31,477 nucleotides of DNA from a virus: positions 1 to 31,477 of the IMG/VR virus record IMGVR_UViG_3300033998_000459; one strand, written 5' to 3'. Every line of letters begins with the position of its first letter. Positions within the stretch are counted from its first letter, which is position 1. The notes beneath the pieces were generated by a model, which saw only the letters and a list, made by a program, of their open reading frames with translations, had not been told where the DNA came from and did no database searches. This document shows, piece by piece, positions 1-29,389 of the stretch. A program made the position numbers and the translations under genes.

Positions 1-1002
1 TTATTGTGTTTTTAGCTGTTTTTTCATGTCTATCGCAAGCCTTAAACTTTTAAGCAATATTCTTTCAACAGCTTGATGACTTGCGGTATCAGCTGAATGG
101 CCAATCCAAGACCCAAGCGAAGAAAGATATCGCTCATCACTTATTTTTCCATGTCGCCAAGCCATCGCTTTCTTTCGCATACGTGATAGAGACTGTTTTT
201 TTATTAATTTATTTCTATTCCAGATCCGATAGCCAACGAATTCAATCCCATCGGATGTTTTTGCAATTTTGGTTTTATCGTTTAACTCTAGAGCTAGCTG
301 ATTTTTTAAAAAATATTTAATTTCATCTAGAAGGCCTCGAAGATAAGCCTTGTTATTATGTAGAATAACAAAATCATCCATGTAACGAACATAAAACTTT
401 ACGCCACAAACATTCTTTATGTGATGGTCAAGCTCATGCAGATAAACATTCGCAAAAAGTTGACTCATTAGATTACCTATTGGCAACCCAGGCCCAGGCG
501 TACTGTTTAATATTTCATCTATAAGCCACAGGATGTCTTTGTCGTTTATTTTTCTGGCTATAATTGATTGAAGAATTGTTCGGTTTATTGATGCGAAATA
601 CATTTTAATATCGGCTTTTAGATAATAATAATTACCTGGTTTACCTAAAAAATAAGCCATTCGACGAGCAGCTTGATGAGTACCCTTTCCTCGCCTACAT
701 GCGTAAGAATCATAAATCATATAATGTTCAAAAATCGGATCAATAACAGTATTAAGGGCATGCTGCACAACCCTATCGCGGAAAGGAAGTGCTACGATTT
801 GCCTTTTCTTTGGCTCGTAGATTGCGAAGGAGCGATAAGTGCCGACCTTGTATGTCTTCCATATTAGTTCGTTCTGTAACGCGATGAGATTTTCTTCAAG
901 AGTATATGAGAACTGCAGAATCTCGTCACGGTAGCGCTTTTGTTTCTTCGCTTTAATGTACGCTTCATAGAGATTGCGATAGTCGTATACCCGCTCGAAC
1001 AC
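1..1002 (-). CDS. DGR reverse transcriptase
   Basis: Reverse transcriptase of a diversity-generating retroelement; it should copy the template-repeat RNA into adenine-mutagenised cDNA that replaces the variable repeat. The 333-residue protein has the RT palm: motif A with Asp131 (LKADIKMYFASI), the sequence IGNLMSQ at about 175-181, and the catalytic YMDD at 207-210. The (I/V/L)GxxxSQ form of motif 4 is typical of DGR RTs, where group II intron RTs usually have QGxxxSP. There is no maturase or endonuclease domain, and the length is normal for a DGR RT. The start is GTG at 1002-1000 with AAGGAGG about 8 nt upstream. It is the last gene of a leftward block after variable protein, avd and template repeat, the standard DGR order. 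The stop codon is the first three bases of the window, so the gene is complete. Confidence 0.96.
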   Translation of the reverse strand: MFERVYDYRNLYEAYIKAKKQKRYRDEILQFSYTLEENLIALQNELIWKTYKVGTYRSFAIYEPKKRQIVALPFRDRVVQHALNTVIDPIFEHYMIYDSYACRRGKGTHQAARRMAYFLGKPGNYYYLKADIKMYFASINRTILQSIIARKINDKDILWLIDEILNSTPGPGLPIGNLMSQLFANVYLHELDHHIKNVCGVKFYVRYMDDFVILHNNKAYLRGLLDEIKYFLKNQLALELNDKTKIAKTSDGIEFVGYRIWNRNKLIKKQSLSRMRKKAMAWRHGKISDERYLSSLGSWIGHSADTASHQAVERILLKSLRLAIDMKKQLKTQ

Positions 1003-1148
1003 GAAAAACGCCTCCTTAATAAAAAAGAGTGCCCAACCCGCAGGCGGAGCACCAACCTAGTTTTGCCTTACGGCAAGGAGTAATGATCTGACAATCTGTC
1101 ACTGCGATCGGCACCGTAATGCCGCATCGTCTGGGGTTTAATCGATTC

Positions 1149-1256
1149 TCACAGGCCAGGCGCGACCCAATGTTCGTGTTCACGTTCCACGGATAGTTGT
1201 TCACGTTCACCGTCCGAGCCCCCGCACGGACGCCATTGTCCCAGTTCGCGCCAGCT
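1149..1256 (-). repeat. DGR template repeat (TR)
   Basis: This 108-bp non-coding repeat lies between avd and the RT gene and aligns without gaps to 1631-1738 at the end of the variable protein. Read on the minus strand it has 23 adenines. The two copies differ at 11 positions, and in every case the template base is A. That is the signature of DGR adenine mutagenesis. Most template adenines are in AAC or AAT codons, which can be randomised without giving stop codons. The repeat begins 5 bp after the avd stop. The rest of 1003-1260 should be transcribed as the structured template RNA, and I see no gene in it. Confidence 0.96.
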
Positions 1257-1260
1257 TGCA

Positions 1261-1599
1261 TCACACTCCTTTTAATAGGCCGCCGACAATACGGCCCAGC
1301 TCATCCACCATTTTCGCAGCTGTTTCATAGCTTTGGTGGCTGAGATATTTCCTTCGGAAGCTGTGCCGAATCAACCACCGCAGCATTTCCAGCTGGGTGT
1401 CGATTTCGTACAATCCCGGAGCTTTTTGTCTCAACTTGTTCGTACGAATGATCAGCCTCATTATCTCGTAGCACGTGTTTTTGATCTGACTGCATAGAGC
1501 AAATTTCTCATGCTTCGGGAATCGGTCGATTATTGGGAACAGATATTCGGTAAAATCCTCGGCCTTTTGCCACAAGACAAATCCACGTGTACCAGACAA
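1261..1599 (-). CDS. avd: DGR accessory variability determinant (Avd)
   Basis: Accessory protein that binds the DGR reverse transcriptase and template RNA and is needed for mutagenic homing. The 112-residue, basic, mostly helical protein fits the four-helix-bundle Avd family (S23/bAvd-like). The N-terminal segment FVLWQKAEDFTEYLFPII, followed by a Pro-Lys helix start, is characteristic. The start is TTG at 1599-1597, with GGAG about 7 nt upstream; that Shine-Dalgarno falls inside the heptad repeats between this gene and the variable protein. The gene ends 5 bp before the template repeat. Family assignment rests on sequence pattern and on its place between variable protein and template. Confidence 0.9.
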   Translation of the reverse strand: MSGTRGFVLWQKAEDFTEYLFPIIDRFPKHEKFALCSQIKNTCYEIMRLIIRTNKLRQKAPGLYEIDTQLEMLRWLIRHSFRRKYLSHQSYETAAKMVDELGRIVGGLLKGV

Positions 1600-1601
1600 A
1601 A

Positions 1602-1630
1602 CAGATCTCCAGACTACAGATTACAGACTG
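1602..1630 (-). repeat. Heptad tandem repeats abutting the variable repeat
   Basis: On the plus strand the unit CAGAYTR occurs three times in tandem (1610-1616, 1617-1623, 1624-1630), preceded by a diverged 8-nt copy at 1602-1609. The array starts exactly where homology to the template ends, contains the stop codon of the variable protein (1621-1623), and carries the GGAG used by avd. Many DGRs have an inverted-repeat structure downstream of the variable repeat that helps homing; this array is direct, not inverted, so any similar role is a guess. Confidence 0.55.
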
Positions 1631-2811
1631 TCACAGGCCAGGCGCGACCCAATGTGCGCGCTCACGTTCCACGGAAAGTTGTTCACGGCCACCGCCCGAG
1701 CCCCCGCACGGACGCCACTGCCCCAGAGCGCGCCAGCTATGTAAGCAACTACTCCATAACTGTTTGGCAGGTACGCCTGCCCCTTCCCTGACCCGAGCAC
1801 ATTCTGCCAGGCCCAAGATGTAGAGTCTTGCCGGATGGACATTTCGTCCAGCCACTCCCATAGGTTTCCCACGCAGTCCACGCAGTTGTACGCGCTGATT
1901 GCTGCAGGCTTTACTCCGCCCGATGGGTCGTAATCTCCTGTAGAGGTGTTTACCTGACAACCAGTTCTGGTTCGATTACTATCAGATGTTTTTGTCCATC
2001 CATATGTATCCGCTCCATCGAGCCCCTGCGGATTGCCAAACGCGGCCTGTATCCACTCTCCATAAGTCAAGAGTCTTTTCCCTGCACGACTAGCAAGTTC
2101 CTGAAAACAGTACCAATTCACCCCTTCAGTTCCAGATACAGGGACTTGCCCATATTTTGATTGCAATCGGCCAGATGTAATATGCAGTCCAGAAGTTCCG
2201 CTTTCCAGAGCGATTGGTTCTGCGGCGCTTGACAGATAGATGTCTACCCATATACGGCCAACTTTTACCATGCCTTCGGGACTACAAACCGGCCGGTTCT
2301 TTAGGTCCCAAACACTGTTCGGCACAATCCCGACAGTAACATTATCTTTCCAATCAGGCGTACCAGATCCAAATTTTACTCCTGATCCATCAATAGGAAC
2401 CAAGAGCTCGTCGCTCGACACTTTGCGAATATGCCCGTAGTGGAAACCACCGATCTTTCGGGACGAGGAGGCATTGTATCCGGACGGATACGTTGCATTA
2501 GCGCTAATCAGGAAAACGCCATCCCCTCCATTGTCACAAAGATACACATAATAATCCACCCCAACCTGAAAAGATCCTACATCAAGGTCAGATTCACTTA
2601 ATTCGACGTCTTGCTTTACGGTGAAAATTTTCCATTCATCGTTAAGCAACGATATAACCGTATCCTTTTTAACGATGATTTTATTCTCTGTATATGAAAA
2701 CGGATTCTTCTTTTCAAGATAGTTTTTTGCTGGAGACTTAACATCGTGAAACAGTGCAAACCACGATACCGAGACATCATCGACATAATCCTTAACACGG
2801 TATAGCGACAT
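1621..2811 (-). CDS. DGR variable protein, C-type-lectin/FGE-like putative receptor-binding protein
   Basis: Target protein of the DGR, 396 residues, and probably the host-recognition tip of the tail. The C-terminal half follows the formylglycine-generating-enzyme type of C-type lectin fold seen in the Treponema protein TvpA: a segment starting PEGMVKVGRIWVD near 178, then RLLTYGEWIQAAFG, and VGNLWEWLDE, a variant of the family's GN(V/L)WEW. The last 36 or so residues are encoded by the variable repeat. Nine codons differ from the template, giving L362, G364, S365, A373, A375, F379, S384, A385 and H386. The N-terminal 150 residues resemble nothing I recognise and presumably attach the protein to the tail. 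The gene starts at ATG 2811 directly after the 93-residue gene. Confidence 0.92.
   Translation of the reverse strand: MSLYRVKDYVDDVSVSWFALFHDVKSPAKNYLEKKNPFSYTENKIIVKKDTVISLLNDEWKIFTVKQDVELSESDLDVGSFQVGVDYYVYLCDNGGDGVFLISANATYPSGYNASSSRKIGGFHYGHIRKVSSDELLVPIDGSGVKFGSGTPDWKDNVTVGIVPNSVWDLKNRPVCSPEGMVKVGRIWVDIYLSSAAEPIALESGTSGLHITSGRLQSKYGQVPVSGTEGVNWYCFQELASRAGKRLLTYGEWIQAAFGNPQGLDGADTYGWTKTSDSNRTRTGCQVNTSTGDYDPSGGVKPAAISAYNCVDCVGNLWEWLDEMSIRQDSTSWAWQNVLGSGKGQAYLPNSYGVVAYIAGALWGSGVRAGARAVAVNNFPWNVSAHIGSRLACDSL
1631..1738 (-). repeat. DGR variable repeat (VR)
   Basis: The 3' end of the variable protein gene, 108 bp, the copy that receives mutagenised cDNA. It matches the template at 97 of 108 positions; the 11 mismatches are all at template adenines (A to G 6 times, A to C 3 times, A to T twice, read on the minus strand). 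The last 21-22 bp before homology ends are identical and GC-rich, as expected for the initiation-of-mutagenic-homing site. After the shared CTGTGA the two copies diverge abruptly. Confidence 0.96.
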
Positions 2812-3093
2812 TTATTCCCCCTTTAGTTTCGTGATCATCGTGTCGATCTCTTGTTCTGAAAATCCAGCTTGAAAAAATGGAGATGCTGGATCTGGCACAT
2901 CCTCAAAATCATCAGCAGCCAATTCTTCTGCCGGTTTTGATACACCGTGTTTTAGCATCTTCATGTTTTTTGATGCTTTGAGAGCAGTAAGACGTGCAAT
3001 AAACGCACCTCTAACCTCTGGACGCTTCAAAGCATACTCATACGCATGTTCCCAGTCAGCCCTGGTTTGCAGAAAATAAGGTATTCCTATCAT
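2812..3093 (-). CDS. Hypothetical protein upstream of the variable protein
   Basis: A 93-residue acidic protein that I do not recognise. It has no signal peptide or membrane segment. The N-terminal half is predicted helical (EHAYEYALKRPEVRGAFIAR), the middle is acidic and Pro-rich (DDFEDVPDP), and the end is a short helix. It ends directly against the start of the variable protein, so the two are probably translationally coupled. From position alone it could be a chaperone or connector for the tail-tip protein. Confidence 0.75.
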   Translation of the reverse strand: MIGIPYFLQTRADWEHAYEYALKRPEVRGAFIARLTALKASKNMKMLKHGVSKPAEELAADDFEDVPDPASPFFQAGFSEQEIDTMITKLKGE

Positions 3094-3154
3094 AGTTAAC
3101 TCCTTTCAATGCGTTAATTCTGGAGGACACTCACACTGTTTGCTTGAATACAGG

Positions 3155-3553
3155 CTATGGCAGGTGATTTAGGAGAGATTTAATTTCATCAATCCGGGTG
3201 CGAGCTCGCTCTCTTTCATTGGCAATGTCTTCTGGCACAGGCTTTCCATTGTCAAGTGATCTAACGACGTACCAGTCGGTATCGGCTAAAAAAGCGTTCA
3301 ATTTTACTACTTCTCGTCTAAGCACTACTTTTTCTGGGGTAGGAAGAGGCGACTTCATCAGAGAGCCAGAATCGATTACGTAAAGGGGCTGAAGATTATC
3401 ATCATACAAATCACGCGGCATTTCACCAATAAAGATATCACTTCCAGATGGCGCAGGCTGACTCTCATCTGTTTCTCCAATAAATTGATAGCCGCATAGA
3501 TATAGTTTATCATTGATAAGTTTAGTTTGGATTGTATACACAGGCTTTTTCAT
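3155..3553 (-). CDS. Putative tail fibre assembly-like protein
   Basis: A 132-residue soluble protein. The C-terminal 60 residues (FLADTDWYVVRSLDNGKPVP followed by EDI and an Arg/Glu-rich helix) follow a pattern common at the ends of phage tail-fibre-assembly and XkdW-like proteins: a short strand with a D-W-Y core, an E/D-x-G-x-P turn, then a terminal helix. The N-terminal part has no assignment. The ATG at 3553 overlaps the end of the NlpC/P60 gene. The assignment is by pattern and by neighbourhood, just before the receptor-binding protein; confidence in the function is low. Confidence 0.7.
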   Translation of the reverse strand: MKKPVYTIQTKLINDKLYLCGYQFIGETDESQPAPSGSDIFIGEMPRDLYDDNLQPLYVIDSGSLMKSPLPTPEKVVLRREVVKLNAFLADTDWYVVRSLDNGKPVPEDIANERERARTRIDEIKSLLNHLP

Positions 3554-4068
3554 AGCTTTAAAACCAACATTCTTCCGAATGCAATAAAACGAGGGTCAGC
3601 GTTGCTATAGAATCGTTCCGAAACCCCATCTATTCCTTCTTCGGGTTTATATGTTGAATCTATAAAATAGATATTTCCGTTCTCAGACCTTACAAACAAC
3701 GCTATATGGGATATAATGCCATCATCACCCATAAAGATCAGATCGCCTGGCTGTAAGTCCTGTATATCAAGAGGAATAGAATATTCCCGCAAGCCTACAG
3801 CGGTAGCATCAGCAAAAAGCAATGAATATCCAAAATCTGCCGCAGCATATTCATAACATCGAATTACTAATCCTGAGCAATCGACAACAATTCTCCGCGG
3901 CAAAGGATCTTGGCCTCCCCACTCGTACCCTGCGCCGATCTCAATATATTTGTTAGCATAATATATAGCCTGTAATCGGACCATCTCTGGAGCTAATACA
4001 GGCACAGGCGCGGGGGGATTACTGCATGCGATGCATAAAAACGACAAAAGAAAGATTACTCCTCTCAT
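3550..4068 (-). CDS. NlpC/P60-family peptidase, possible lipoprotein
   Basis: A 172-residue cell-wall peptidase of the NlpC/P60 fold, which cuts peptide stems of peptidoglycan. The catalytic Cys is C64 in VVDCSGLVIRCYEY and the catalytic His is H121 in GIISHIALFV; the PGDLIFMG segment between them is typical of the family. The N-terminus (MRGVIFLLSFLCIACS) is a short hydrophobic signal ending in a cysteine at residue 15, a weak lipobox. Its place after the tail-tip gene is that of a tail-associated wall hydrolase such as lambda K, but those normally lack a signal sequence. The start overlaps the stop of the upstream tail protein (ATGA). Confidence 0.9.
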   Translation of the reverse strand: MRGVIFLLSFLCIACSNPPAPVPVLAPEMVRLQAIYYANKYIEIGAGYEWGGQDPLPRRIVVDCSGLVIRCYEYAAADFGYSLLFADATAVGLREYSIPLDIQDLQPGDLIFMGDDGIISHIALFVRSENGNIYFIDSTYKPEEGIDGVSERFYSNADPRFIAFGRMLVLKL

Positions 4069-6413
4069 ATCAATATTCCACGCTGGCCGATATATAATAA
4101 TCCAAGTGCTATCCCAGGATAAAATTGAAACGACAGATTACCTAAATTATATCCCACCGGGATAATAATCATCATGCTCGACCTTAAATAGTCAATATAA
4201 TTGCCATTAAGATTAATTGAAACATAAGGCGTAAAACAATCATCAATGCCTAGATTTGAACCGTAAGGTCTAAAAGCAACTCTTGTAGAGGCATACGAGA
4301 CGAGAGCGTCCGGATTATAAGACCCATACACATCTAATATAACACCTTTAATATTAGTATACGAACGCTTTGCTATATTTACAGTATACCATTGATCCGC
4401 CTGGACAGCGCCATTAAACAAGGTCACGCCTGGATCTTGCCACCAGACCAAGTGGCCCATGTAATATTCACCTTCCGCGATCTGCTGATCGGGAATGTCA
4501 TGTATAATTTTGCCTTGTGCGTCTAACACTAACAGCCCTTTTTGCGGATTTACCGCGACAGTCCTGTTTAATACATCTTTAAATTCAAGTTTATCGATTG
4601 GTGCGACTTTGGTAAAATTCACTGCTTTATATAGGCGATATGGTTTATAAAACTTTCCTTCGCCAAATTTCCCTTCTCCGAATCGTTTATAGAATGGAGA
4701 CAGCGTGTTTGTGTATTTATATTGCGCTATGATTTCAATTTTTCCGACAAATTCGGTCAATGCGGTTACAACAACTTTTTTTTCTATCAGATCAAATAAA
4801 ATCCCAGAACTTAAGACCGACAAATCCCAATTTTGCGTATCGTCTGCATTATTAACCTTTACATAAAAAGTAAATTCAAGGTCATTCCATTCCTGGACGT
4901 TACCATTCCAGTCACTAAACACCGAAAACGATTCTTTTGAAACCTCAATCTTTGCGCTGCTTATTGCGGTTTCTTCATTCTGTGTATAGGATGGCGGCTC
5001 TTGTGTTTGATTTGCACTCTCAGTAATGGTTCCAATAATTGGCACTGATAGCGCGATGCATTTGTAAGAATACTCCTCGGTTACTGCATTGAATGTCTTC
5101 TCGGTGAGTAGTAAAACAGGGTAGATTCCTGAAAAGGGGTCGTTTATTTCTATAATTGCCCCTACCGGGTAATTATAATCAGACTTAAATTTAAACCGCC
5201 AGCATTGTGCTTTTAGTTTTGTTTTTATAAACGCAAAAAAATCGCGGGCTATTTGACTATCATGGACATATTCTGCATCATATTTATACGTCTTCAGACC
5301 TGAATCTGAATCGGATATGGTTATTTTCGCTCCACGATACACAACGTTTCCGTACACATTGCAATAATAAATATTTTTTGAGTAGTCCGAATTGTTTCTA
5401 TACGCCAAACGACACCGTTTGTTTTCGAATAACTGTAGAACCTTTTGAACGCCAGGATCGGTTTTTTCCTCTACCGCATGATTCTTTGTCATCACGATCG
5501 AAGTAAAGTCTTTGTTGACGACTACGTTGCCCTTAAGGTCGAGTTTGCTGCCGATGGCTTTGTCGGTGTATTCGAACCAGGTTTCCTGAACGTTTGCTTC
5601 TTCTGGCCAGAGGTAGCCGGGTTGAATCGGCCAACCAGAGCGAAGACCATTGTCCCCAAAGGGGAGATCTGCCATGTAGAGGAGTACCTGTTCTTTATAT
5701 TTAAGCGGATAATATGAAACCTCTACACTATCGTATTCAGAATAGAGTTTTTCAATCTCCAGAGGTGCTTTGATATTTTGTTCAGTAAGCGTTAGTTCCG
5801 GAACCGGGTCGTCGTGTATGATTTTGATTATTTTAACCCGTCCATACGGGTCGAAGGTAAAGGTATAGCCATATTCATAAAGGAGCGTATCGAGGATTTC
5901 AAGGATTGTTTGTCCGGGATCCGGGGCGAAGGCAAGCAAGATCGTCGAAATGGAAGGAGGGTTTATTATCTCAAGGCCAGTAAGGTTTAAAAGGCGGTGC
6001 ACGCAGCTTTTTCCTGGTTGGGATACATCGCACACAACAGCATTTTCTATCACAAGGCCATCAGCGCGGGTCAGCTGACGTTCAAGCAGATAGGTTTTGT
6101 CTTCAAACTCAACCGAGATATCCTCGACATCAGCGCCACTCAAGGCTGCGCCATATGACCTGGTTTGCAATGAGGATGGAGCCAGCCGGCCGGTGAAGTC
6201 ACGTTGTCCATTTACGTCGATTTCTGCCAGGACATTGCCCTGGCTCAGAATGGATAGGAGTTGGGGAGTATATACCAGGGTGAGCGATCTGGTGCTCACC
6301 GCATGCCGAAAGTCTTCGCTGCATGCCCGATCAAAGGACTCGTAGGTCCGGACAAGGTCTGAAAAATCGTAAGTTTGACCGTTGACTATTAGCTTGAGTG
6401 TTACGGTGGTCAT
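4065..6413 (-). CDS. Large tail-tip / baseplate hub-like protein
   Basis: A 782-residue tail protein directly after the tape measure, the usual place for distal-tail/baseplate hub proteins that form the tip and bind fibres. The N-terminal 350 residues are strand-rich with a short-domain pattern seen in gp27-like hub proteins. Residues in the 460-560 range look like an Ig-like or fibronectin-like segment, and the C-terminal 150 residues are Gly/Tyr/Asn-rich beta structure. I chose ATG at 6413 over an in-frame start 22 codons upstream, because it has AGGAG 7 nt ahead and begins just beyond the tape-measure stop at 6415-6417. The plus-strand base composition becomes AT-richer beyond about residue 250. 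Confidence 0.82.
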   Translation of the reverse strand: MTTVTLKLIVNGQTYDFSDLVRTYESFDRACSEDFRHAVSTRSLTLVYTPQLLSILSQGNVLAEIDVNGQRDFTGRLAPSSLQTRSYGAALSGADVEDISVEFEDKTYLLERQLTRADGLVIENAVVCDVSQPGKSCVHRLLNLTGLEIINPPSISTILLAFAPDPGQTILEILDTLLYEYGYTFTFDPYGRVKIIKIIHDDPVPELTLTEQNIKAPLEIEKLYSEYDSVEVSYYPLKYKEQVLLYMADLPFGDNGLRSGWPIQPGYLWPEEANVQETWFEYTDKAIGSKLDLKGNVVVNKDFTSIVMTKNHAVEEKTDPGVQKVLQLFENKRCRLAYRNNSDYSKNIYYCNVYGNVVYRGAKITISDSDSGLKTYKYDAEYVHDSQIARDFFAFIKTKLKAQCWRFKFKSDYNYPVGAIIEINDPFSGIYPVLLLTEKTFNAVTEEYSYKCIALSVPIIGTITESANQTQEPPSYTQNEETAISSAKIEVSKESFSVFSDWNGNVQEWNDLEFTFYVKVNNADDTQNWDLSVLSSGILFDLIEKKVVVTALTEFVGKIEIIAQYKYTNTLSPFYKRFGEGKFGEGKFYKPYRLYKAVNFTKVAPIDKLEFKDVLNRTVAVNPQKGLLVLDAQGKIIHDIPDQQIAEGEYYMGHLVWWQDPGVTLFNGAVQADQWYTVNIAKRSYTNIKGVILDVYGSYNPDALVSYASTRVAFRPYGSNLGIDDCFTPYVSINLNGNYIDYLRSSMMIIIPVGYNLGNLSFQFYPGIALGLLYIGQRGILI

Positions 6414-6414
6414 A

Positions 6415-9400
6415 TTAGGCTCCTGCGGGTAGTAAGTTGCGAGATCGCTTTTTAGCCAGGGCAAGGGCGATAGAGTCAACGAGGTCGGACTCGGTCTTTA
6501 CCGAGCCTTCTACGTTGACGGTGATGTTGTAGACTTCGGTCTTTCCAGAGGATGCCCCGGAACCGAGCGTGAGTTTTCCCGAACGGATGCCCTCGGCGAA
6601 GGTTGCGGGGACTATCATCTCGCCCTTATGCACCACGCCGGGCATATCATGGGGGAGTTCTACAGCTCCAACATCCCACCAGCCAAATGAATTTCCAATT
6701 GCCCCGCCGATGGCCCCAACTGCGCCGCCGATTGCAGCGCCTACCGCAGTACCGATGCCCGGCACAATCGATCCAATACCAGCTCCAACGGCGGCACCGG
6801 CCAGGGCTCCTGTCGCAGCATCCTGCAACCCATTAGTCGATGGTGCAGATGGCGCAGACGATGCAGATGGCGCAGACCCAGCCTGAGTGTACACATTTAT
6901 ACCTTTCGAGAGTTGGTCGTAAATTTTTTGCAGCTGAGACAGCTGGTCCTTTTCAAGCTGATTCAGCGCGGACAGCGCTGTTTCTTTCTGAGCGTTCAAT
7001 TCTCGGACTCTGCGATCATACTCCGCTTCTCCCAAGGCGCCAATTTCGAGCAGTTTTCGCAAGCTCTGGATATTTTTTTGGTACACATCATTTATTTCCT
7101 GACGGCGCTTTTCAAAGTCATCGCGGATTGCTTGCATCTGATCCGAGACCGCTTCCATCTTCTTTTTAATTTCAACTTCTTCGTTGGCGATTTCTGCTGT
7201 CGTTTTAAGCCTGTCGAGGTATCGCAAGTTTACTCCGGCCCAGCCGAGGGCATTGTTGATAGCTTGGATAACCCCATTTATAAGATCGATGATCGCATTG
7301 CCAACCGGCACGATTACTTTATCATTCAGCCAAACAAGTGCCTGGGTAAAAGCTTTGATAGGGATCTGTGCTACCTGCAAGACCGATGATAGGACCCGGA
7401 CAACAGTTGCAACAACCGATATTGCTGGCGCAAGTATCTCGCTGAGCATCTGGCCAACTTCGAGTAACAGGTCAACAAGGGGCTGTAGAGCGTCGTTAAT
7501 GAGGGGTTCAAGCAGGCTTCGAGCCCCTTCAAATATGGTTTTGAAGGGGTTTAGCACCTTCTGCACATTCTCTATGGAGAGGGCGAATTCGGCGGCCGCC
7601 TCGATCAGCATGACAATTGGGTTAACTGCTGCACCGCCAGCAAAGCCGCCCATTTTACCTACCTCGGTACTGGCGGCTTGCTCCTGGGCAACCGATGACG
7701 CATACTGCACCCAATCGCCTTGCTGGGCCGCCATCTGTTTCTGCTGTTCAAAGGCTTTTCTCATGGCGGTCACCCGGGCCTGGGCAGCCTTTTCTGCTTC
7801 GTCGGTCTCGGTCTGGCGAATTTTTTCTGCATACCAAGCGGCAAGGCGGGCCTTTTGCTCTTCGGCGCCTTCAAAGAGGGCAAGTTCCTTATCCATTAGG
7901 ACTTTTAGGTCATCAACCTGGCTTTCGGTGAGCCGCGCCTCAAACTCCTGTGCTTTCAGGGCCGCATCCATAGCTGCCTGGGCAGTTTTCTTGGCCTCAT
8001 CTTCCTTGGTTTTACTAATAAGGCTTTCATAATACGCGGCAATTTGCGCACGAGCGGCCTCAGTCCCTTGAAAACTTGCAAGGGTCTTGTCTCGCTCGAG
8101 CTCGAGATCATCAATGCGGGTTTCGGTAATTTTTGCAAGCTGTTCTCGTTCCGCAAGGGCGATGGATTCGGCTACTTTTTTACGTTCGGTATTATAATAG
8201 GCATTTATCTGGTCGATTACTGCCTTATTAGCCTCTCCGATATACGCGGCGGCCGCTTCTTCGAGCTTCTTCTTGCGCTCAAGCTCTATGGCAGCGTAGG
8301 GGTCTGATGAATTTTTTGACTGGTACTCTTCCCAGGCTTTTGCCCAATCAGTCTTAAATTTGCTTGCAATTTCATCTTTCTTTTGTTTGATGAGGGCTTC
8401 TACTACCGCCGCCTGTTTGTAGGTCTCCGCAAGCGCTTCTGCATAATATCTTGATCCTGCAGCCTTTGCTCGATAGTCTGCGAGCTGGCCCTGCAGAGAC
8501 GCCATGACCGACTGCAACTCTGCAATGGTTTTGTCTTTCAGGCTGTCTTTATACGCATCCAACGCCGCCCTGGCGCGGTCTGCGGCGGCTGCGGTGGCGT
8601 CGTAGGATGATGCGGCGGCCGCGTTTGCCTCTGCACCGGAGGCGATAGCTTTCGCGGAGTCTCCCTGGGAAACCGCATAGGCAGTTACCGCTATAGCTGC
8701 CGCCGATGCGGCGGCTATACCCGCGATTAATAGGGGGTTCATTACTGCCATAGCAGCATTTACCGCCTGCAGGGCCGCAAAGTGGGTCCACTGCGCGGCA
8801 GCGGCTATACCTGCCTTAACAGCTAATGCCGCAAGGCCTGCGGCAAGTGCGGCTACCGCGGCCCCCATAACTACTTTTACTACAGGGCCCGCATTTGCAA
8901 GGGCCCCCGCAAGGGCAGTGACAGCGTTAGCGGCTATGGTAAAGGTTGGGGCAAGAGACTCCCCTACTGCCTCGGCAAGGTCGCCGACAGTCTCTTGCAT
9001 CCGCTTAAAGGCCACGGCGGAGGTAGCGCTCATCTGCTGGGCAGACCCGGCATAGAGTTTGCCTACCACTTCTATTGCCTTTCCGGCCTTGAGCTCTTCC
9101 TCGGTCAAGTCTTTTAACTGCGGTATGGTTCTTCCTAAATGCCCTACCATACCAGACATTGTCGTGTTTAGTTCCTGCACACTAGTAGCCAGGTCATCGC
9201 CGGTAACGGCTGATAGGTCTGCTGCAACGGTCAGGATCTGTTTTATCTGGGCTTCGCTCTTGCCCTGCATGGCGAGCTCTGCGGCAAGCTGTTTTACATA
9301 GTCGTCGCTGGCGCCGGTGAGCGCTTGCAACTCTGAGGCAAATTTGGTAAGCCGCTCTGCTCCGCCGCTATCACCCCGCATAGCCATAGCCATTTCAAGG

Positions 9401-9888
9401 CGCATCGCTGACTGTTCGGCCTGAGCAAAGGCGGCTACCGCATCGGACGCAAAGCTTGCGACCTGGTGTGCCATGGCTGCCAGCGCCCCGGACTCAGCAA
9501 GCTTCCCGAGTTTTGCTTCCAGCGTATTTGCCCCTTCGCCAAGAGAATTGAGTTTTTTACCAGCCTCTTCATACTGTTGTTTGAGCTGTTGCAGTTCATC
9601 TGACTGCGGGTCAAGGCCCTGATCGATGAGCTGGCGCATGGCGGTTTGTAGCGCCTGCTGCTGCTCTTTTAGGCCTTGCGATTCATTGCCCATAAGGCGG
9701 GCAAACTTTGCGGAGGACTGCAATTCATTATTGAGATTGGCAACAATCGCCTTCGTTTGGTCGGAGGAGGGGCCCAGGCTTTTAACGTCCTGGGCGAGTT
9801 TTTTAACATCGGTTTGAGTAGTCTTGAGGTTGGCCAGCGCCTTTCCAACTTCTATTTGTATTTCTAGCCGTAGTTTTTCTTCGGTCAT
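6415..9888 (-). CDS. Tail tape measure protein
   Basis: A 1157-residue protein that sets tail length and is ejected with the DNA. It has an N-terminal coiled-coil region (about 1-130), an Ala-rich hydrophobic stretch with several possible membrane segments near 335-410, a long charged coiled coil from about 430 to 720, further hydrophobic helices around 760-890, and a glycine-zipper segment near the C-terminus (GAAVGAGIGSIVPGIGTAVG). Within the charged coil a unit of about 55-60 residues recurs about three times, with a core like DDLELERDKTLA then AAYYESLI (coding span roughly 8300-7750). At about 0.15 nm per residue the tail would be near 170 nm. The start overlaps the end of the chaperone frame upstream. 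Confidence 0.95.
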   Translation of the reverse strand: MTEEKLRLEIQIEVGKALANLKTTQTDVKKLAQDVKSLGPSSDQTKAIVANLNNELQSSAKFARLMGNESQGLKEQQQALQTAMRQLIDQGLDPQSDELQQLKQQYEEAGKKLNSLGEGANTLEAKLGKLAESGALAAMAHQVASFASDAVAAFAQAEQSAMRLEMAMAMRGDSGGAERLTKFASELQALTGASDDYVKQLAAELAMQGKSEAQIKQILTVAADLSAVTGDDLATSVQELNTTMSGMVGHLGRTIPQLKDLTEEELKAGKAIEVVGKLYAGSAQQMSATSAVAFKRMQETVGDLAEAVGESLAPTFTIAANAVTALAGALANAGPVVKVVMGAAVAALAAGLAALAVKAGIAAAAQWTHFAALQAVNAAMAVMNPLLIAGIAAASAAAIAVTAYAVSQGDSAKAIASGAEANAAAASSYDATAAAADRARAALDAYKDSLKDKTIAELQSVMASLQGQLADYRAKAAGSRYYAEALAETYKQAAVVEALIKQKKDEIASKFKTDWAKAWEEYQSKNSSDPYAAIELERKKKLEEAAAAYIGEANKAVIDQINAYYNTERKKVAESIALAEREQLAKITETRIDDLELERDKTLASFQGTEAARAQIAAYYESLISKTKEDEAKKTAQAAMDAALKAQEFEARLTESQVDDLKVLMDKELALFEGAEEQKARLAAWYAEKIRQTETDEAEKAAQARVTAMRKAFEQQKQMAAQQGDWVQYASSVAQEQAASTEVGKMGGFAGGAAVNPIVMLIEAAAEFALSIENVQKVLNPFKTIFEGARSLLEPLINDALQPLVDLLLEVGQMLSEILAPAISVVATVVRVLSSVLQVAQIPIKAFTQALVWLNDKVIVPVGNAIIDLINGVIQAINNALGWAGVNLRYLDRLKTTAEIANEEVEIKKKMEAVSDQMQAIRDDFEKRRQEINDVYQKNIQSLRKLLEIGALGEAEYDRRVRELNAQKETALSALNQLEKDQLSQLQKIYDQLSKGINVYTQAGSAPSASSAPSAPSTNGLQDAATGALAGAAVGAGIGSIVPGIGTAVGAAIGGAVGAIGGAIGNSFGWWDVGAVELPHDMPGVVHKGEMIVPATFAEGIRSGKLTLGSGASSGKTEVYNITVNVEGSVKTESDLVDSIALALAKKRSRNLLPAGA

Positions 9889-10205
9889 GGCTTTTTCTCA
9901 AGTGTTTCCTGCTCAATAAGGTTTTGCTCATAGGTAAAGGCCGCGAGGACATCGACAGCGACGCTTGGCCAGTCCATCCATCCGCCAGGATAGGGCGGAT
10001 ATTCCAAGAGTTTTACCATGGCGTACCAACTGTATGCCTGGTAAAACGTCTCATCAACATAGATGGGGATGTCCCGGTAGGTAATAAATACCGGCTCCCC
10101 GGTAGCCGGATCGGCCACCCCTGTAGGCAGGAGCATGTCGAGCCGGTCCGGCCGCACTTTTGCCTTATGCTTACCATCCTTAAAAAGACGGTAAGCAATC
10201 CTCAG
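9885..10205 (-). CDS. Tail assembly chaperone, -1 frameshift extension
   Basis: The second half of the tail assembly chaperone, read only after a -1 shift near the end of the upstream gene. The frame is open from the slippery site (first new codon CTG at 10205-10203) to the stop at 9885, adding 106 residues to the 132 of the upstream product, 238 in total. A GTG at 10157 could give a free-standing 90-residue protein, but the 16 codons before it (LRIAYRLF, then KDGKHKAK) read like real protein and have no stop, which fits fusion better. In lambda-like tails the same G/G-T arrangement lies just upstream of the tape measure, as here. It overlaps the tape measure start (ATGA). Confidence 0.82.
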   Translation of the reverse strand: MRIAYRLFKDGKHKAKVRPDRLDMLLPTGVADPATGEPVFITYRDIPIYVDETFYQAYSWYAMVKLLEYPPYPGGWMDWPSVAVDVLAAFTYEQNLIEQETLEKKP

Positions 10206-10212
10206 TTTTTTT
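10169..10212 (-). other. Programmed -1 ribosomal frameshift signal
   Basis: Read on the minus strand, codons CAA AAA AAC are followed by the TGA stop, so the canonical heptamer A AAA AAC (10211-10205) is in the correct frame. After an 8-nt spacer (10204-10197) comes a 12-bp stem, GCUUACCGUCUU (10196-10185) pairing with AGGAUGGUAAGC (10180-10169) around a UUUA loop, with two G-U pairs. Spacer and stem are in the range known to stimulate -1 shifting. The new frame is open for 106 codons. Confidence 0.88.
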
Positions 10213-10600
10213 GGTCAATCTTCTTTTCCAGTTCAGCGCGGAAATGCTCCGCAAGCTCATCGATGAGCTCATCAAATATGATGGGCGCTTCCCAGAGGCT
10301 TTTTGCGTCCGTAATGTGTCGGGTCTCCCCATCGAGCTTGTATGAGAGCCCATCGATACGGATAAGCATGCCGTCGATGATTGCCTTCCTGTCCTGGGTG
10401 ATTACCGTTTCCCCTCCCTCTACACGACCATCAGAGTCGTACCTGAAGCGGAGCTCTGGTTTAGGGAGGAGGCGGCTCTTTAGCGCCGGGGTAGGATTTC
10501 GATATACCACGCTACAGCGGTCCGCCGCAGGGGCGTCCCGGTTGCCGTTAAATTTGGGGACATAGGTCAGTTTTGCGCTAAACTCAAGTTCCATACTCAC
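10202..10600 (-). CDS. Tail assembly chaperone, short (unshifted) form
   Basis: A 132-residue protein two genes upstream of the tape measure and directly after the tail tube gene, the position of lambda G. The C-terminal half is helical and acidic (FDELIDELAEHFRAELEKKI), as usual for proteins that coat the tape measure before tube polymerisation. The two forms of this protein probably occur in an unequal ratio set by the frameshift signal at its 3' end. The start is ambiguous: GTG at 10600 (AAAGGAG about 4 nt upstream) or ATG two codons later at 10594 (spacing about 10). Confidence 0.85.
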   Translation of the reverse strand: MSMELEFSAKLTYVPKFNGNRDAPAADRCSVVYRNPTPALKSRLLPKPELRFRYDSDGRVEGGETVITQDRKAIIDGMLIRIDGLSYKLDGETRHITDAKSLWEAPIIFDELIDELAEHFRAELEKKIDQKN

Positions 10601-10617
10601 AATGCTCCTTTAGCTGC

Positions 10618-11292
10618 TTAGATAGTCCGTTCATAGTAGACAGGGTCAGATACAAAGCGGAACTTACTGGTAAACTCCTGCTTGTTTCCGCTTTCTGCGC
10701 CAAGGTTCACACCGTACAGTTCGATCTGGGCAAAGAGGAAGGCGAGCACTTCCCCGCTTTTGTTGGTGTTGCGGATAACACCACGGATGTAAATTGGCGC
10801 GGAGCTGATCTCGCTCACTGTTACAGTAGTACCACTTTTCTTAATAACCTTGACAAATTGGTTTAAGAGGCCTCCGGTTTCTCCGGTAACTCCCAGGGTA
10901 AAGATTCCCTTCACCTGGCCTTCAGCATCGGCTTTACCTTTCCGATAGGTGTTCACCGTATTGATGAGCCGGGTCGTTTCCACTTCTTTTGCGGAGAAGC
11001 TTGCTGACCAGCTCGTAGCATCAAGGAAGGGGGTTGCGGTGACGAGTTTTGCCTTGTCTCCTACAGCAGGGATTTCCGTACCGTCGGCAGGGAAGAGGTC
11101 CCCTACTTTAAGAGACCCAAAGATGGAGCCAGTGGAGGCTTTGGCGGTGATGAGCCATTCACCCTTGCCCTTTCCAGTACCACCGGCCAGGTCGTCAAAA
11201 GTCTTGGTGCCATCGCCAATCTGCTCGGTACCAAACTCGACCTTTTCGATGGTCGCATCATCTCCAATAAGAGTTAACATTTCAGTAGCCAT
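10618..11292 (-). CDS. Major tail tube protein
   Basis: A 224-residue beta-rich protein with the layout of a siphophage tail tube subunit: an N-terminal strand pair (LTLIGDDATIEKVEFG), a Gly-rich loop, an Asp/Thr-rich middle, and a C-terminal QIELYGVNLGAES segment resembling tube-protein ends. It polymerises around the tape measure to form the tube. There is no sheath gene on either side, so the tail should be non-contractile. It is preceded by two minor tail genes and followed by the chaperone pair, the standard order. Identification is by order and composition rather than a unique motif. Confidence 0.82.
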   Translation of the reverse strand: MATEMLTLIGDDATIEKVEFGTEQIGDGTKTFDDLAGGTGKGKGEWLITAKASTGSIFGSLKVGDLFPADGTEIPAVGDKAKLVTATPFLDATSWSASFSAKEVETTRLINTVNTYRKGKADAEGQVKGIFTLGVTGETGGLLNQFVKVIKKSGTTVTVSEISSAPIYIRGVIRNTNKSGEVLAFLFAQIELYGVNLGAESGNKQEFTSKFRFVSDPVYYERTI

Positions 11293-15761: not shown

Positions 15762-17150
15762 TTACTGGCGCGCTATTATTTCACTGAAATCAGGCAGAAT
15801 ATACCACACCTTTTTAATGTTTACTCTTCGCTTTAAAGACTTTTTGATTTCATCGAATATCCAATTTCGATCTTTTTTCTCTTTAATAGCCAGTATAATG
15901 TTTTCCGATTGCTTATTTCGTAAAGCATTATCAATGCTTGTTGATGTCCCAATTATATTTTTAAGTTCCCATATTTCACCATCAACTATAAAATCTGGGC
16001 TTGTTAAATGATTACTGCGAGGTAGTAATTTTACTTCTCGTCCTTCTTTTGCTAGACGTTTTGCGATATCTTCCTCGGGTAGTTTTTTGCCTTTATGACT
16101 TTCATGTTTATACACTTTCCCTCCAGATGGATACTCTTGGATAAGGTTAAAACCATCGAGCGAATCGGGGGCAAAGAGTCTAGCACTTCTAAAACCAGCA
16201 TTCTCAGCAAAGAACTTTAGGTCATTCATGATGCCATAGTGTAAAGCCCGATGCTGCATGGCATCAGTAATATCGTAAAACGTACCCTTTTTAATTGGGT
16301 TCTCCCCAAACCCACTTTGCGGATGGAACTCCTTGCGCAGGCGCTTCATGGGGACGTTCTGCACCGGTACATGGCCCACTTCGTAGTCATAAATTCCCCG
16401 TACGGTGGTGCGGCAGTTAAAGTGAAAGGGGGGCCAGTGGTCTTCCCAGAAGGGGTGATTGTAGGGGAGGACAAGCCCTGCAAGGGGGCGGCAGATGGCG
16501 CTGGTCCGCTCATCCTCCAGCACCATGAGCGCCAGGGCTGACGGCGGGTCCCGGTCAAATTGCATCCTGCGGCCCGCATTGTAGGCGGTCTGCACATTGG
16601 TGCGGTATACCGTCTCCCAATAGCCGGGTTTAACAGTGGAGCCATCGGATTCGGCTATAGCCTTTACATCGCCCCAGAGCTGGTCAAAGCCTTCGCCTGT
16701 TTCGAGGGCGCTTACCAGACGGCCCCGGACGGCTTCTATGTAGTCGCACTGGGTGAGCTTTGCCATAGTGAAGGCGCGGAACGCCAGCTTTGGCTCCAAA
16801 GCCGCCCATTCTGCTTTGGTGAGACTCACTCGCGCTTTCAAAAACTTAATCGCCTCATCGAAGGGGAGCGGGGTGTAGTCGCTGTCTGCAAGGGTGGTGT
16901 CGGGGCTTGCGTGGTCCATGCCAAGGAGCAGCGACCCTGCAAGAAGCTTTTCTGTGTTGGTTAAGAGATCAGATGATACGTCTGGGAAAGCAGCTGTGCG
17001 TACAGTTTCCAAAGTTGGCGGCGCCCCATCAGGCGACAGGGAACGGATCCACGCCGCCATGGCTTTCCCTATAGAGATCAGGGTCCCGTCCTGAAACCTG
17101 CCGACAAGCCGGTCAAGCTCAGAAAGTTTTTTGTGTTCATCATCTTCCAA
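15762..17150 (-). CDS. MuF-type head protein with C-terminal nuclease-toxin-like domain
   Basis: A 462-residue protein with two parts. Residues about 100-290 are a MuF/SPP1-gp7 minor head domain: YRTNVQTAYNAGRRMQ at about 182, then CRPLAGLVLPYNHPFWEDHW and FHFNCRTTVRGI ending near 253. It is packaged in the head with the portal. Residues about 330-462 are different. They hold AKRLAKEGREVKLLP, PDF at 385-387 and ELK at 395-397, a PD-(D/E)xK-type active site, followed by SIDNALRNKQSENIILAI. This matches CdiA C-terminal tRNase-like toxins. The DNA for this part is clearly AT-richer than the MuF part. The start is TTG with no close ribosome site; see the A9 tract in the portal gene. Confidence 0.9.
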   Translation of the reverse strand: MEDDEHKKLSELDRLVGRFQDGTLISIGKAMAAWIRSLSPDGAPPTLETVRTAAFPDVSSDLLTNTEKLLAGSLLLGMDHASPDTTLADSDYTPLPFDEAIKFLKARVSLTKAEWAALEPKLAFRAFTMAKLTQCDYIEAVRGRLVSALETGEGFDQLWGDVKAIAESDGSTVKPGYWETVYRTNVQTAYNAGRRMQFDRDPPSALALMVLEDERTSAICRPLAGLVLPYNHPFWEDHWPPFHFNCRTTVRGIYDYEVGHVPVQNVPMKRLRKEFHPQSGFGENPIKKGTFYDITDAMQHRALHYGIMNDLKFFAENAGFRSARLFAPDSLDGFNLIQEYPSGGKVYKHESHKGKKLPEEDIAKRLAKEGREVKLLPRSNHLTSPDFIVDGEIWELKNIIGTSTSIDNALRNKQSENIILAIKEKKDRNWIFDEIKKSLKRRVNIKKVWYILPDFSEIIARQ

Positions 17151-24586: not shown

Positions 24587-24620
24587 AAAAAGAAAGGAGC
24601 CGTTGCGCCGGCCCCTTTCT
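24587..24620 (-). terminator. Possible leftward terminator hairpin
   Basis: AGAAAGGAGCCG (24591-24602) pairs with CGGCCCCTTTCT (24609-24620) around a 6-nt loop, with one mismatch on the plus strand that is a G-U pair on the minus strand. On the minus strand the stem is followed by four T, so it could stop leftward transcripts entering the immunity region. On the plus strand it would only fold the early leader. Confidence 0.45.
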
Positions 24621-24659
24621 AAATTAAACCGCCCAGAAAGGGCAGGAGGTACAATTATT

Positions 24660-24923
24660 ATGATCCATTTTTCCAAGATCCGCAAGGATTCCCGTCGCAT
24701 TACTCCCAATATGGAGCAGGGAGCCTGGATTTGCTACCGGCTAAAATTAGCCGGGAGCAGTCAAAAAGAGCTGGCTGGCCGAATTGGCGTTACTCAACAG
24801 ATGGTCCAGCAGGTGGCATACGGCCTAAAAACCAGCCAACGGGTCCAAAAAGCTATAGCAGAATCGCTGGGGTACAGCACCTGGGCTGAACTTATTGCAA
24901 ACAGCCGGAGGGTAGCCGCATGA
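24660..24923 (+). CDS. Ner-like transcription regulator
   Basis: An 87-residue basic DNA-binding protein of the Ner type. The helix-turn-helix is visible as SSQKELAGRIGVTQQMVQQV followed by a K-T-S-Q-R-V helix. In Mu, Ner turns down both the repressor and early promoters. I start at ATG 24660 with AGGAGG at 24644-24649 (spacing 10); a longer in-frame reading begins within the leader hairpin and is unlikely. It is the first gene of the rightward operon and overlaps the Bro-N gene (ATGA). Confidence 0.88.
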   Translation: MIHFSKIRKDSRRITPNMEQGAWICYRLKLAGSSQKELAGRIGVTQQMVQQVAYGLKTSQRVQKAIAESLGYSTWAELIANSRRVAA

Positions 24924-26460: not shown

Positions 26461-26649
26461 ATGAAAGGGGTTTTGCGGAGATTTGCCTACGTCCGATCTC
26501 TGGAGGAGCGCATTGCAGAGCTTGAAAAGGAAGCGGCCCGCAAAGACGCCGCCATGGCATCCATGAACCGCTACATCGAACAACTGGAAACCCTTAAGGG
26601 ATATCTTGAGCAACAAATCGCTGAGATGAAGCGGGGGTATCGGCCATGA
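26461..26649 (+). CDS. Small coiled-coil early protein
   Basis: A 62-residue protein, nearly all a coiled coil (SLEERIAELEKEAARKDAAM then YIEQLETLKGYLEQQIAEMK). Start ATG 26461 has GGAGG 5 nt upstream, and the stop overlaps the transposase start (ATGA). It probably works with, or is coupled to, the transposase, but no function is known. Confidence 0.78.
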   Translation: MKGVLRRFAYVRSLEERIAELEKEAARKDAAMASMNRYIEQLETLKGYLEQQIAEMKRGYRP

Positions 26650-28475
26650 CCATCACCACGAAGGATATAGCAACTGCGTTGGCTATGAGCGAGCGGCAGG
26701 TCTTGCGACGGGCTGCCGAGGAAGGCTGGCGATATCTTAAGGCCGGTAAATCTCGGGCCTGGGATGTTACAAGCCTATCCGCAGACGTCCAGGTAGCCCT
26801 GGCGCCGAAACTGCGTCCAACAGCAGGCACTGCCAGCCCCACCCAAGACGCTATACACCGGGCGAGCGAAAAAGCCCGTGAACTTGGGCGCCTCAGGCTT
26901 GCTCTGCTAGCGCTGTACGACAGTTCAGGACTTAAGGCGGGCGACTTTGTAGCAACCTACAATGCGGGGTCCATCAATCAAGCTTTACTCTCCAAGCTGG
27001 GAAAGATAAGCCAGGCAACCCTGTACCGCTGGGACGCTCAGCGGAAGCAGGCGGGTTCAACCGGTGTCATTCCGCGCTGGGGTGAGAAAAAGAAGACAAC
27101 AACGCTCACCGATGTAGAGCGGCAAATCCTCGAAAAGTTCTACCTCGCCCCGGAGCGGCGGACCATCCAACATTGCTACCAACTGTTACGACTGAATTTA
27201 CCATCCACTACGGCGACATACCAAACATGCCGGCGCTATCTGCAAAGTTTGCCCAAGCCTCTTGTGGCCTATCATCGCCTGGGACAAAGCAAGTTCGAAG
27301 CGCTGTACCAGCCATTCATCGACAGAGACCCCGGCATCTTCCTGCCGATGCAGCAGGTGGTATCGGATCACCACCGCTTCGACAGCCTCGTCGTTAAAGA
27401 TGAGCGGATTTTCCGGCCCTGGATTACCGCCTGGCAGGACTACCGGTCCAGCAAGATACTTGGCTGGGCGCCTTCTGTGTACCCGTCATCACTTACCATC
27501 CTACAAGCTTTTTACATGATGGTGATACGCTACGGCCTCCCGGAGATGTGCCACATGGACAACGGCAAGGACTACCGGTGCAAAGTGTTGATGGGTTCCA
27601 GCCAGCGGGTAAGCACAATAACTGCCCAGGGTGTTACCGATGAGGAGCTGCTCAATATGCAGGGCACCTTTGCAATGCTGGGGGTACAGACTACCTATGC
27701 CAGAGCCTATCACGGCCAGAGCAAGGGGAGGCTTGAGCGTACCTTTGGCACCTTTGCGGAGTATATCGCCAAGGATACGGGCTACTACATTGGCTCCAAT
27801 ACGGTCACCCGCCCCGAGGATAGCACCCTGTATTTCCGGGCCATCAATAAGAAGGCAAAAAAGCAGGTCCTGCTGAGTTGGGAGGAGTTCTGCGAAAAAC
27901 TCGACGCCTTTATTGCCTTCTGGAACGCAAATTGGCACGGAGAGGGAAAGGGGATGGGTGGGCTTAGTCCTGACGAGGTCTTTGCCCGCTATGCGCCGGA
28001 ACCCCGGAAAGCAGACCCTAAAACCCTGGCACTGGCTCTCACGAGGCCGGAGGTGCGCAAGGTTACCCGCAATGGCGTCAGCGTCATGGGCATCCAGTAC
28101 TGGGCAAAGGAGCTTTTGGAATACGCTGGCCAGGATGTGGTGGTCCGAATCCCTATCGTAAAGCCGGATACAGCGCTTATCCAGACCATCCAGGGGCAGA
28201 CCATCTGTACCGCCTGGGCGGACTACTTTGTTGCTACTGGTGACGTTGCTATAGACAATGAAAAGGTAAACGCCGCCCGGAAGGCTAGCCTGGAGCTGGT
28301 CCGCACCCGGTCAACATCGCTCAGTAAGAACCAGGGGCTTAAAACATTCCTCGATCTGCCTGCTCCGCCCAGGCAAGAGTTGCCCGATCTGGACACGTTG
28401 CCCCTGGCCGCAGGAGCAGAACCACCTTATCGGCCCGACCCAAAACCGGCACTTAAAAGCCCCCTCGATATCTAA
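26646..28475 (+). CDS. MuA-like DDE transposase
   Basis: A 609-residue transposase that cuts and joins phage ends to target DNA. The N-terminus (TTKDIATALAMSERQVLRRA then SRAWDVTSLSADVQ) is a Mu-type DNA-binding winged helix. The rve-type catalytic core has Asp241 (VVSDHHRFD), Asp305 (HMDNGKDYR) and Glu364 (GRLERTF); the spacing D-64-D-59-E resembles MuA (269, 336, 392). The C-terminal domain after about 460 includes a beta-barrel-like region and a Pro-rich tail that could contact MuB. It lies directly before the MuB-like gene, as in Mu. Confidence 0.97.
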   Translation: MTITTKDIATALAMSERQVLRRAAEEGWRYLKAGKSRAWDVTSLSADVQVALAPKLRPTAGTASPTQDAIHRASEKARELGRLRLALLALYDSSGLKAGDFVATYNAGSINQALLSKLGKISQATLYRWDAQRKQAGSTGVIPRWGEKKKTTTLTDVERQILEKFYLAPERRTIQHCYQLLRLNLPSTTATYQTCRRYLQSLPKPLVAYHRLGQSKFEALYQPFIDRDPGIFLPMQQVVSDHHRFDSLVVKDERIFRPWITAWQDYRSSKILGWAPSVYPSSLTILQAFYMMVIRYGLPEMCHMDNGKDYRCKVLMGSSQRVSTITAQGVTDEELLNMQGTFAMLGVQTTYARAYHGQSKGRLERTFGTFAEYIAKDTGYYIGSNTVTRPEDSTLYFRAINKKAKKQVLLSWEEFCEKLDAFIAFWNANWHGEGKGMGGLSPDEVFARYAPEPRKADPKTLALALTRPEVRKVTRNGVSVMGIQYWAKELLEYAGQDVVVRIPIVKPDTALIQTIQGQTICTAWADYFVATGDVAIDNEKVNAARKASLELVRTRSTSLSKNQGLKTFLDLPAPPRQELPDLDTLPLAAGAEPPYRPDPKPALKSPLDI

Positions 28476-28489
28476 TCTAAGGAGTGTTT

Positions 28490-29380
28490 ATGACTTTTAA
28501 AGAAGAGTTTAAAGAATTTATCGATAAATACAAAATCAGTCAGAACAAGGCCGCCGAGGCGGCTGGCTATGCCGGCTCGGTTATCAGCCAGTGGCTGAAT
28601 GGCACTTATAAAGGCGATGCGGAGGCTGTCGAATCAGCCTTGCATACCTGGATGGAACGGGAGCGAAATCGCCGCTCCCGCCGTTCGGTCCCTCTGGTAG
28701 AGACTGAAAACCTGCGCCGTATCCTGAATGCCATCCAGATCGCTCATGAGGAGCGGGATATCGCGGTTATCGCCGGTCCTGCGGGGGTGGGGAAAACTAC
28801 CGCTCTGCGCAAGTATGTGGCGGAAAATCCCAATGGATCCATCCTTATCGAGGTAGATGAATCGATGGGGAAAATTGCTCTTATTCGCGAAATTGCGGAA
28901 AAACTCGGCATCGACCGCAATGGCTCCCATGTAGAGCTGGTCCGGCGGGTCGCCGCAACCCTGGCGGATCGGGACCTCATCGTCATTATCGATGAGGCTG
29001 ACTACCTGAACGATGGCGCTCTGGAGTTAGTGAGGCGTGTCGTTAACGACAAGGGACAGTCAGGACTTGTGCTCTGCGGGCTCCAGCGGCTTGTTTTCCG
29101 GATTAAGAACCTTAAAAACGACCATCAGCAGTTGGCAAGTCGTGTCGGCGTCCTGTTAGAGGTGAGTGACTTATCCCCTGGGGATGCGGAAAAGATGATC
29201 ACATCCGTCTGGCCCGACTTAAATAAGGAAACCATACAGGCCTTCGTTAAAACCGCCGCTGGCTCTGCCCGCGCCTTAGCAAAGCTTATCGATCGGGCTC
29301 ATCGGACCGCCATAGCAAACGACCTTGCTGAACCAACCCCAGAGGCCATCCGCGTTGCAGGGGCTTTAATACTCAAATAG
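28490..29380 (+). CDS. MuB-like target-selection ATPase
   Basis: A 296-residue AAA+ ATPase that coats target DNA and recruits the transposase. It has an N-terminal helix-turn-helix (KISQNKAAEAAGYAGSVISQ) as in MuB, Walker A GPAGVGKT at about 96-103, Walker B IVIIDEAD at about 164-171, and a small helical C-terminal domain. The ATG at 28490 (AAGGAG 6 nt upstream) is better placed than a GTG two codons earlier. It follows the transposase by 14 bp. Confidence 0.95.
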   Translation: MTFKEEFKEFIDKYKISQNKAAEAAGYAGSVISQWLNGTYKGDAEAVESALHTWMERERNRRSRRSVPLVETENLRRILNAIQIAHEERDIAVIAGPAGVGKTTALRKYVAENPNGSILIEVDESMGKIALIREIAEKLGIDRNGSHVELVRRVAATLADRDLIVIIDEADYLNDGALELVRRVVNDKGQSGLVLCGLQRLVFRIKNLKNDHQQLASRVGVLLEVSDLSPGDAEKMITSVWPDLNKETIQAFVKTAAGSARALAKLIDRAHRTAIANDLAEPTPEAIRVAGALILK

Positions 29381-29389
29381 GAGGAGTAA

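Follow-up and report, generated by a model that had tools for sequence, protein, structure and literature searches.

The DNA analysed here (the window, an IMG/VR record of 31,477 bases that starts exactly on the stop codon of a reverse transcriptase gene) very probably carries an intact diversity-generating retroelement (DGR) of the BPP-1/Mtd kind, located at the far right end of a spirochaete prophage that is Mu-like and probably siphoviral. Its parts follow one another on the minus strand in the order target, avd, template repeat (TR) and reverse transcriptase (RT), confirming the gene order and positions proposed in a preliminary description of this sequence, and the reading frames of RT, avd and target are all open (Table 1). 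The same description had called the DGR complete, which agrees with the family matches of the three proteins and with the adenine-restricted pair of TR and variable repeat (VR) reported below.

Table 1. Features of the DGR and of the carrier phage in the window.
Feature	Position	Strand	Description
RT	1..1002	-	DGR reverse transcriptase, 333 aa, intact; RVT_1, phrog_1423, 8ub7, YMDD and GLPIGNLMSQ
TR-RT spacer	1003..1148	-	Four predicted stems (about 1018-1127), part of the TR RNA
TR	1149..1256	-	108 bp; begins right behind the avd stop codon
avd	1261..1599	-	Accessory variability determinant, 112 aa; bAvd 9e-30 (Pfam), phrog_3206 2e-29 (PHROGs)
TCTG array	1593..1627	-	5 copies, spacing 7, 7, 8, 9; directly 3' of the VR
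VR	1631..1738	-	108 bp; final coding portion of the target gene
Target	1621..2811	-	Putative Mtd-type receptor-binding tail protein, 396 aa; PF21916, phmmer, AlphaFold fold match
Tail module	2812..11292	-	Small ORFs, NlpC/P60 protein, 804-aa tail protein, tape measure, likely tube
MuA-type transposase	26646..28475	+	DDE_2 2e-11, Mu-transpos_C 5e-11
MuB-like ATPase	28484..29380	+	AAA_22 3e-20; adjoins MuA
Gam	30289-30798		Downstream of the MuB-like ATPase
GemA	30873-31310		Downstream of Gam

The RT was matched to RVT_1 (2e-20, Pfam) and phrog_1423 (3e-121, PHROGs), and its best solved structure by score was 8ub7 (1.3e-57, covering nearly the whole protein), which we take to be the BPP-1 RT. Alignment with the bRT taken from the BPP-1 genome revealed conservation of YMDD and GLPIGNLMSQ, and the two motifs that define the DGR family of RTs, YxDD and (I/L)GxxxSQ, are represented as YMDD and LPIGNLMSQ. 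Avd belongs to the DGR accessory-protein families of both Pfam and PHROGs. The TR and the VR differ at 11 positions, all of them TR adenines (23 available), while the other 85 positions are identical; the repeat pattern described earlier was thus exact to the base, and the chance of 11 random mismatches all hitting the 23 adenines is 3.9e-9. Within the 31,477-nt window the TR matches only itself and the VR, with no third TR copy and no second VR.

The target protein matches Mtd-type tail families (mtd_2nd PF21916, 1e-27, Pfam; phrog_11262, 5e-65, PHROGs), and phmmer matched it to all Mtd variants (1.9e-18). The AlphaFold model of the target, built from 57 relatives, has a mean pLDDT of 91 and replaced a first model from 19 sequences that was poor in the lectin domain. 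Structure comparison aligned it with Mtd across residues 1-396 (Z 32, 318 residues aligned, 27% identity), whereas the match to Treponema TvpA (Z 17.7) covers only the lectin domain, residues 166-395. Taken together, the mtd_2nd and phmmer matches and the whole-length as opposed to lectin-only similarity indicate that the target, as modelled, is a Mtd homologue over its full length and not a TvpA-type lectin. The preliminary description had spoken of a spirochaete-type lectin; this has to be revised, since the architecture is that of BPP-1 Mtd throughout and only the C-type-lectin domain is TvpA-like. Its remark that the tail module ends with the target holds. The lectin domain also resembles formylglycine-generating-enzyme folds, and this, along with the TvpA match and a phage host that is a spirochaete MAG, might be read as pointing to another kind of lectin, surface-exposed or structural, such as has been suggested for TvpA, with the DGR serving the host cell. 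We consider such a role very improbable in view of the full-length Mtd architecture, the location of the gene where the tail genes end, the membership of the protein in a PHROG tail family and the position of its first cysteine at residue 92, which leaves it devoid of the lipobox cysteine and lipoprotein signal of the TvpA kind. As a full-length Mtd homologue encoded next to the tail genes, the target may bind a surface receptor at the tail tip, and the obvious reading is that a variant Mtd would change adsorption or the host receptor.

The Mu-type nature of the carrier, already suggested in the preliminary description, is manifested both by the MuA and MuB genes of the window and by two sibling prophages on contigs C13 and C74 of the MAG 'Gracilinema caldarium bin74'. 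These siblings start TGTAATTTATCA, end ...GTTACA and are flanked by the 5-bp duplications CCCAA and CCAGA, respectively; TG...CA ends together with 5-bp target duplications are those of Mu-type transposition. Both ends of the window coincide with stop codons, so the IMG/VR entry was probably cut at gene boundaries; the window itself ends short of both phage ends, and the end sequences were read from the siblings. According to these, the true right end lies ~60-90 bp past the RT stop, and this distance in C74 makes the DGR the last thing on the genome. DGR-type RTs are also found at the right end of the Mu-type phages BalMu-1, Vibrio ZX4290 and Chromohalobacter YPCBV-1. The early genes (HTH, Bro-N, MuA, MuB, Gam, GemA; 24587-31477) diverge from the repressor and late genes (1-24527), unlike those of phage Mu, in which early and late genes run in one direction. 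A MuF-like head protein (15762-17150, minus strand) has a C-terminal CdiA_C domain (PF18451, 3e-7), a fusion of the polymorphic-toxin type; this C-terminal part is conserved in the C74 sibling and did not align in the C13 sibling.

Judged by its genes, the phage is likely a siphophage. A tape measure is present, and no tail sheath or baseplate wedge was detected among the structural proteins scanned, several tail-region proteins having no family match; the siphophage assignment made earlier is hence plausible as far as the missing sheath goes and is weakened by these unassigned proteins. The view that the pairing of a DGR with a transposable siphophage is unusual does not stand, as this combination is already known in the hankyphage (PMC6199706, PMC12135933). 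The terminase of the window is 86% identical to those of the two bin74 prophages and 81-87% identical to fragments found in a MAG of an uncultured Spirochaeta, and these relatives place the host among the spirochaetes. Searches of viral contigs with RT or MuA alone returned no close relatives; these were found through target and terminase searches. A related Mu-type prophage (L030; terminase 66%, MuB 51%) was also observed in DYOB01000012.1, from a MAG labelled Borreliella garinii (isolate SulCav), a species label that looks doubtful.

The C74 prophage carries a complete DGR, whose RT and target are 85% and 83% identical to those of the window. Of 106 sites compared between the two TRs, 10 differ, and at the five sites where both have a base other than adenine each VR carries the base of its own TR (5/5 in the window, 5/5 in C74). 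Each VR therefore tracks the private substitutions of its own TR, which requires rewriting of the VR from the TR since the lineages split. In three further relatives (L105, L106 and L107) the TRs are identical over 106 bp and the VRs differ pairwise at 10-14 sites, with 34 of the 36 differences at TR adenines and the VR-to-TR interval 98-99% identical. Adenine bias was general among 69 DGRs with a TR/VR pair, window and C74 included, where 824 of 890 base mismatches fell at TR adenines. Comparison of relatives thus supports activity of the DGR since the lineage split. The preliminary description had suggested recent activity and proposed to compare the same locus in related prophages; the suggestion is borne out by this comparison (VRs tracking their TRs, and one TR accompanied by three different, adenine-biased VRs), not by reads.

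The C13 prophage (L084 in G001, near 17,768) has kept an open target gene (88%) and has cleanly lost avd, the TR and most of the RT, the sequence running from just upstream of avd straight to the last 34 bp of the RT. An assembly artefact is unlikely, because no more than 34 bp are shared across the junction and the phage, at its far end, runs into host DNA that carries the matching duplication. Compared with the window TR, the C13 VR shows 14 differences, 11 at adenines and 3 elsewhere, whereas in the window and in C74 every mismatch between VR and TR within the repeat is at an adenine of the TR. Such a pattern would be expected if rewriting had been lost and drift had followed, with the numbers being small and the comparison made with the TR of the window, not with C13's own. 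The idea that the C74 DGR writes the C13 target in trans was rejected, as the C13 VR differs from the C74 TR at 19 positions, 10 of them non-adenine. Two further loci (L164 and L176) have Mtd-like genes and 4 kb of downstream sequence in which RT, avd and TR were not found, and represent possible further cassette losses.

These observations also bear on whether the repeats could have another origin or the system another state. Two similar copies close together might result from ordinary duplication with biased decay; confinement of the mismatches to the adenines of one copy, which adjoins RT and avd, and recurrence of the same arrangement in dozens of relatives make this explanation extremely improbable. 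A DGR that is intact in sequence and now silent, its VR having been written earlier in a dormant or decaying prophage, is unlikely yet deserves more weight. It is favoured by the C13 sibling, whose loss of avd, TR and RT with retention of the target shows that phages of this group can do without the cassette, and by the missing BPP-1-type hairpin described below. Open RT, avd and target genes in the window speak against silence, as do the 85 non-adenine positions without a single mismatch, compared with the 3 non-adenine differences of the C13 VR from the window TR, and the different VRs found beside one identical TR in very close relatives.

Parts of the cassette have a history of their own. 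Four relatives from IMG/VR (L105-L108) are 92-93% identical to the window in avd DNA and 89-91% in the spacer and carry the same TCTG array, but their target proteins are only 65-67% identical; the C74 sibling, with 80% in avd and 75% in the spacer, falls below them. One of the phages concerned (L107, in G215) is of Mu type, has a tail sheath, i.e. is contractile, and encodes a transposase 34% identical to that of the window. The part comprising avd, TR and spacer seems to move between Mu-type phages, near-identical cassettes being found in otherwise distant members, one of them contractile-tailed. This same phage (L187 in G215, with L107) has a DNA methyltransferase after the RT.

The spacer between TR and RT is predicted to be structured, as in BPP-1-type phage DGRs. 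A consensus fold from 10 relatives comprises four stems with 26 pairs, of which 15 show compensatory double changes, and similar elements were recognized by eye in the BPP-1 spacer; no known RNA family was found in the window (Rfam). The BPP-1 spacer, once folded, attracts RT and Avd and serves to prime cDNA synthesis (PMC12875486).

In phage DGRs, that of BPP-1 among them, a GC-rich hairpin of 7-10 bp whose loop is GRNA lies 4-34 bp downstream of the VR and is required for efficient homing (PMC3240598). No such hairpin follows the VR of the window: no inverted repeat of at least 6 bp is present within 80 nt, the single-strand fold is no better than those of shuffled sequences, and the VR ends ...ATTGGGTCGCGCCTGGCCTGTGA, lacking the G/C-only 14-mer before the IMH. 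The VR is followed instead by CAGTCTGTAATCTGTAGTCTGGAGATCTGTTTTGTCTGG, with five TCTG words that overlap the target stop codon and the avd start, the first one lying in the last target codons. At least three TCTG words in the 45 nt after the VR occur in 26 of 69 DGRs, against 1 of 11,323 control tiles and none of 66 post-TR sites, these counts being descriptive as the test was devised after the pattern had been seen in the window. The spacings in non-identical arrays are 7 (24 times), 8 (20 times), 9 (twice) and 16 (once). Array and hairpin are nearly mutually exclusive across the 69 DGRs: a single one of the 26 array bearers (L016) also has a GRNA-type hairpin, and 22 others were classed by hairpin and have no array. 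The window falls, in the RT tree, into a branch of 29 members (support 100/99); 19 of these have an array and none has a GRNA hairpin, and among the remaining ten some show CTG words and a short stem whose loop is GTA or similar. Since other branches of the tree have arrays as well, near-copies are not a sufficient explanation. The conservation of the arrays could be due in part to translation, since the array overlaps the last codons of the target and the likely ribosome-binding region of avd. Pairing of the array with the spacer motif GTCAGAT was rejected for want of a strict link: the array-bearing L137, L138, L142 and L016 have GTCAGCG, GTCAGGT, GTCAGGC or GTCAGAA, and the array-poor L110 keeps GTCAGAT. 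It is less certain whether the phased TCTG array substitutes for the BPP-1 hairpin in marking the VR as recipient. Our broader proposal, that in a whole branch of phage DGRs such an array is recognised by the RT-Avd-RNA complex or a host factor and makes the VR and not the TR the recipient, is tentative and somewhat doubtful. The array seems to be undescribed, a narrow literature search limited to open papers having yielded no account of one.

Among known systems, that of BPP-1 (Rauchvirus) shares with the window the order mtd-avd-TR-RT, adenine-only differences between repeats, a homologous target and RT, Avd at the same place and a structured spacer. It differs in the GC-rich hairpin with a GAAA loop after the VR and in the absence of a TCTG array, and its Mtd has about 27% protein identity to the target. 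The hankyphage of Bacteroides is likewise transposable with 5-bp target repeats and a DGR; its flexible-tailed virions have been imaged (PMC6199706). The DGR of the hankyphage acts on a tail fibre and is active in culture (PMC12135933), but the host belongs to another phylum and the VR (residues 2188-2225) lies C-terminally in a very large protein, compared with a 396-aa Mtd homologue here. Chromohalobacter YPCBV-1 is of Mu type, and the right end of its genome has, in the order seen here, a Mtd-like target, avd and RT (PMC9769972); its target, whose Mtd homology comes from our sequence search, is 35% identical to that of the window. Contractile tail genes, a gammaproteobacterial host and a GC hairpin with a GGCA loop after the VR set YPCBV-1 apart. 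The TvpA DGR of Treponema denticola shares the spirochaete host group and a C-type-lectin variable domain, but its locus has no known phage genes (PMC4891356), its target is a lipoprotein and only the lectin domain matches. DGRs in transposable phages of Firmicutes were described in Toussaint 2013, as cited in PMC5883640. More than 30,000 DGRs have been catalogued from metagenomes (PMC8144416), quite possibly including that of the window. The type of system is already known; the host group, which is little studied, the cassette-less sibling and the TCTG array are new.

By analogy with BPP-1, from which we infer RNA priming, cDNA homing and receptor switching, transcription would span avd to the spacer, the folded spacer RNA would bring in RT and Avd, and the RT would copy the TR with misinsertion at template adenines. 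The TR would stay unchanged, making the rounds repeatable, and a variant Mtd may alter which surface receptor the phage binds. With the present findings, transposable phages of free-living spirochaetes join the known carriers of Mtd-type DGRs, and the prophages of C74 and C13 provide a natural pair of siblings with and without the cassette in one MAG. If the TCTG array is indeed the target mark, it would tell which DNA feature replaces the hairpin in hairpin-less DGRs and would be relevant to the way the cDNA locates the VR, a homing step that is still poorly understood.
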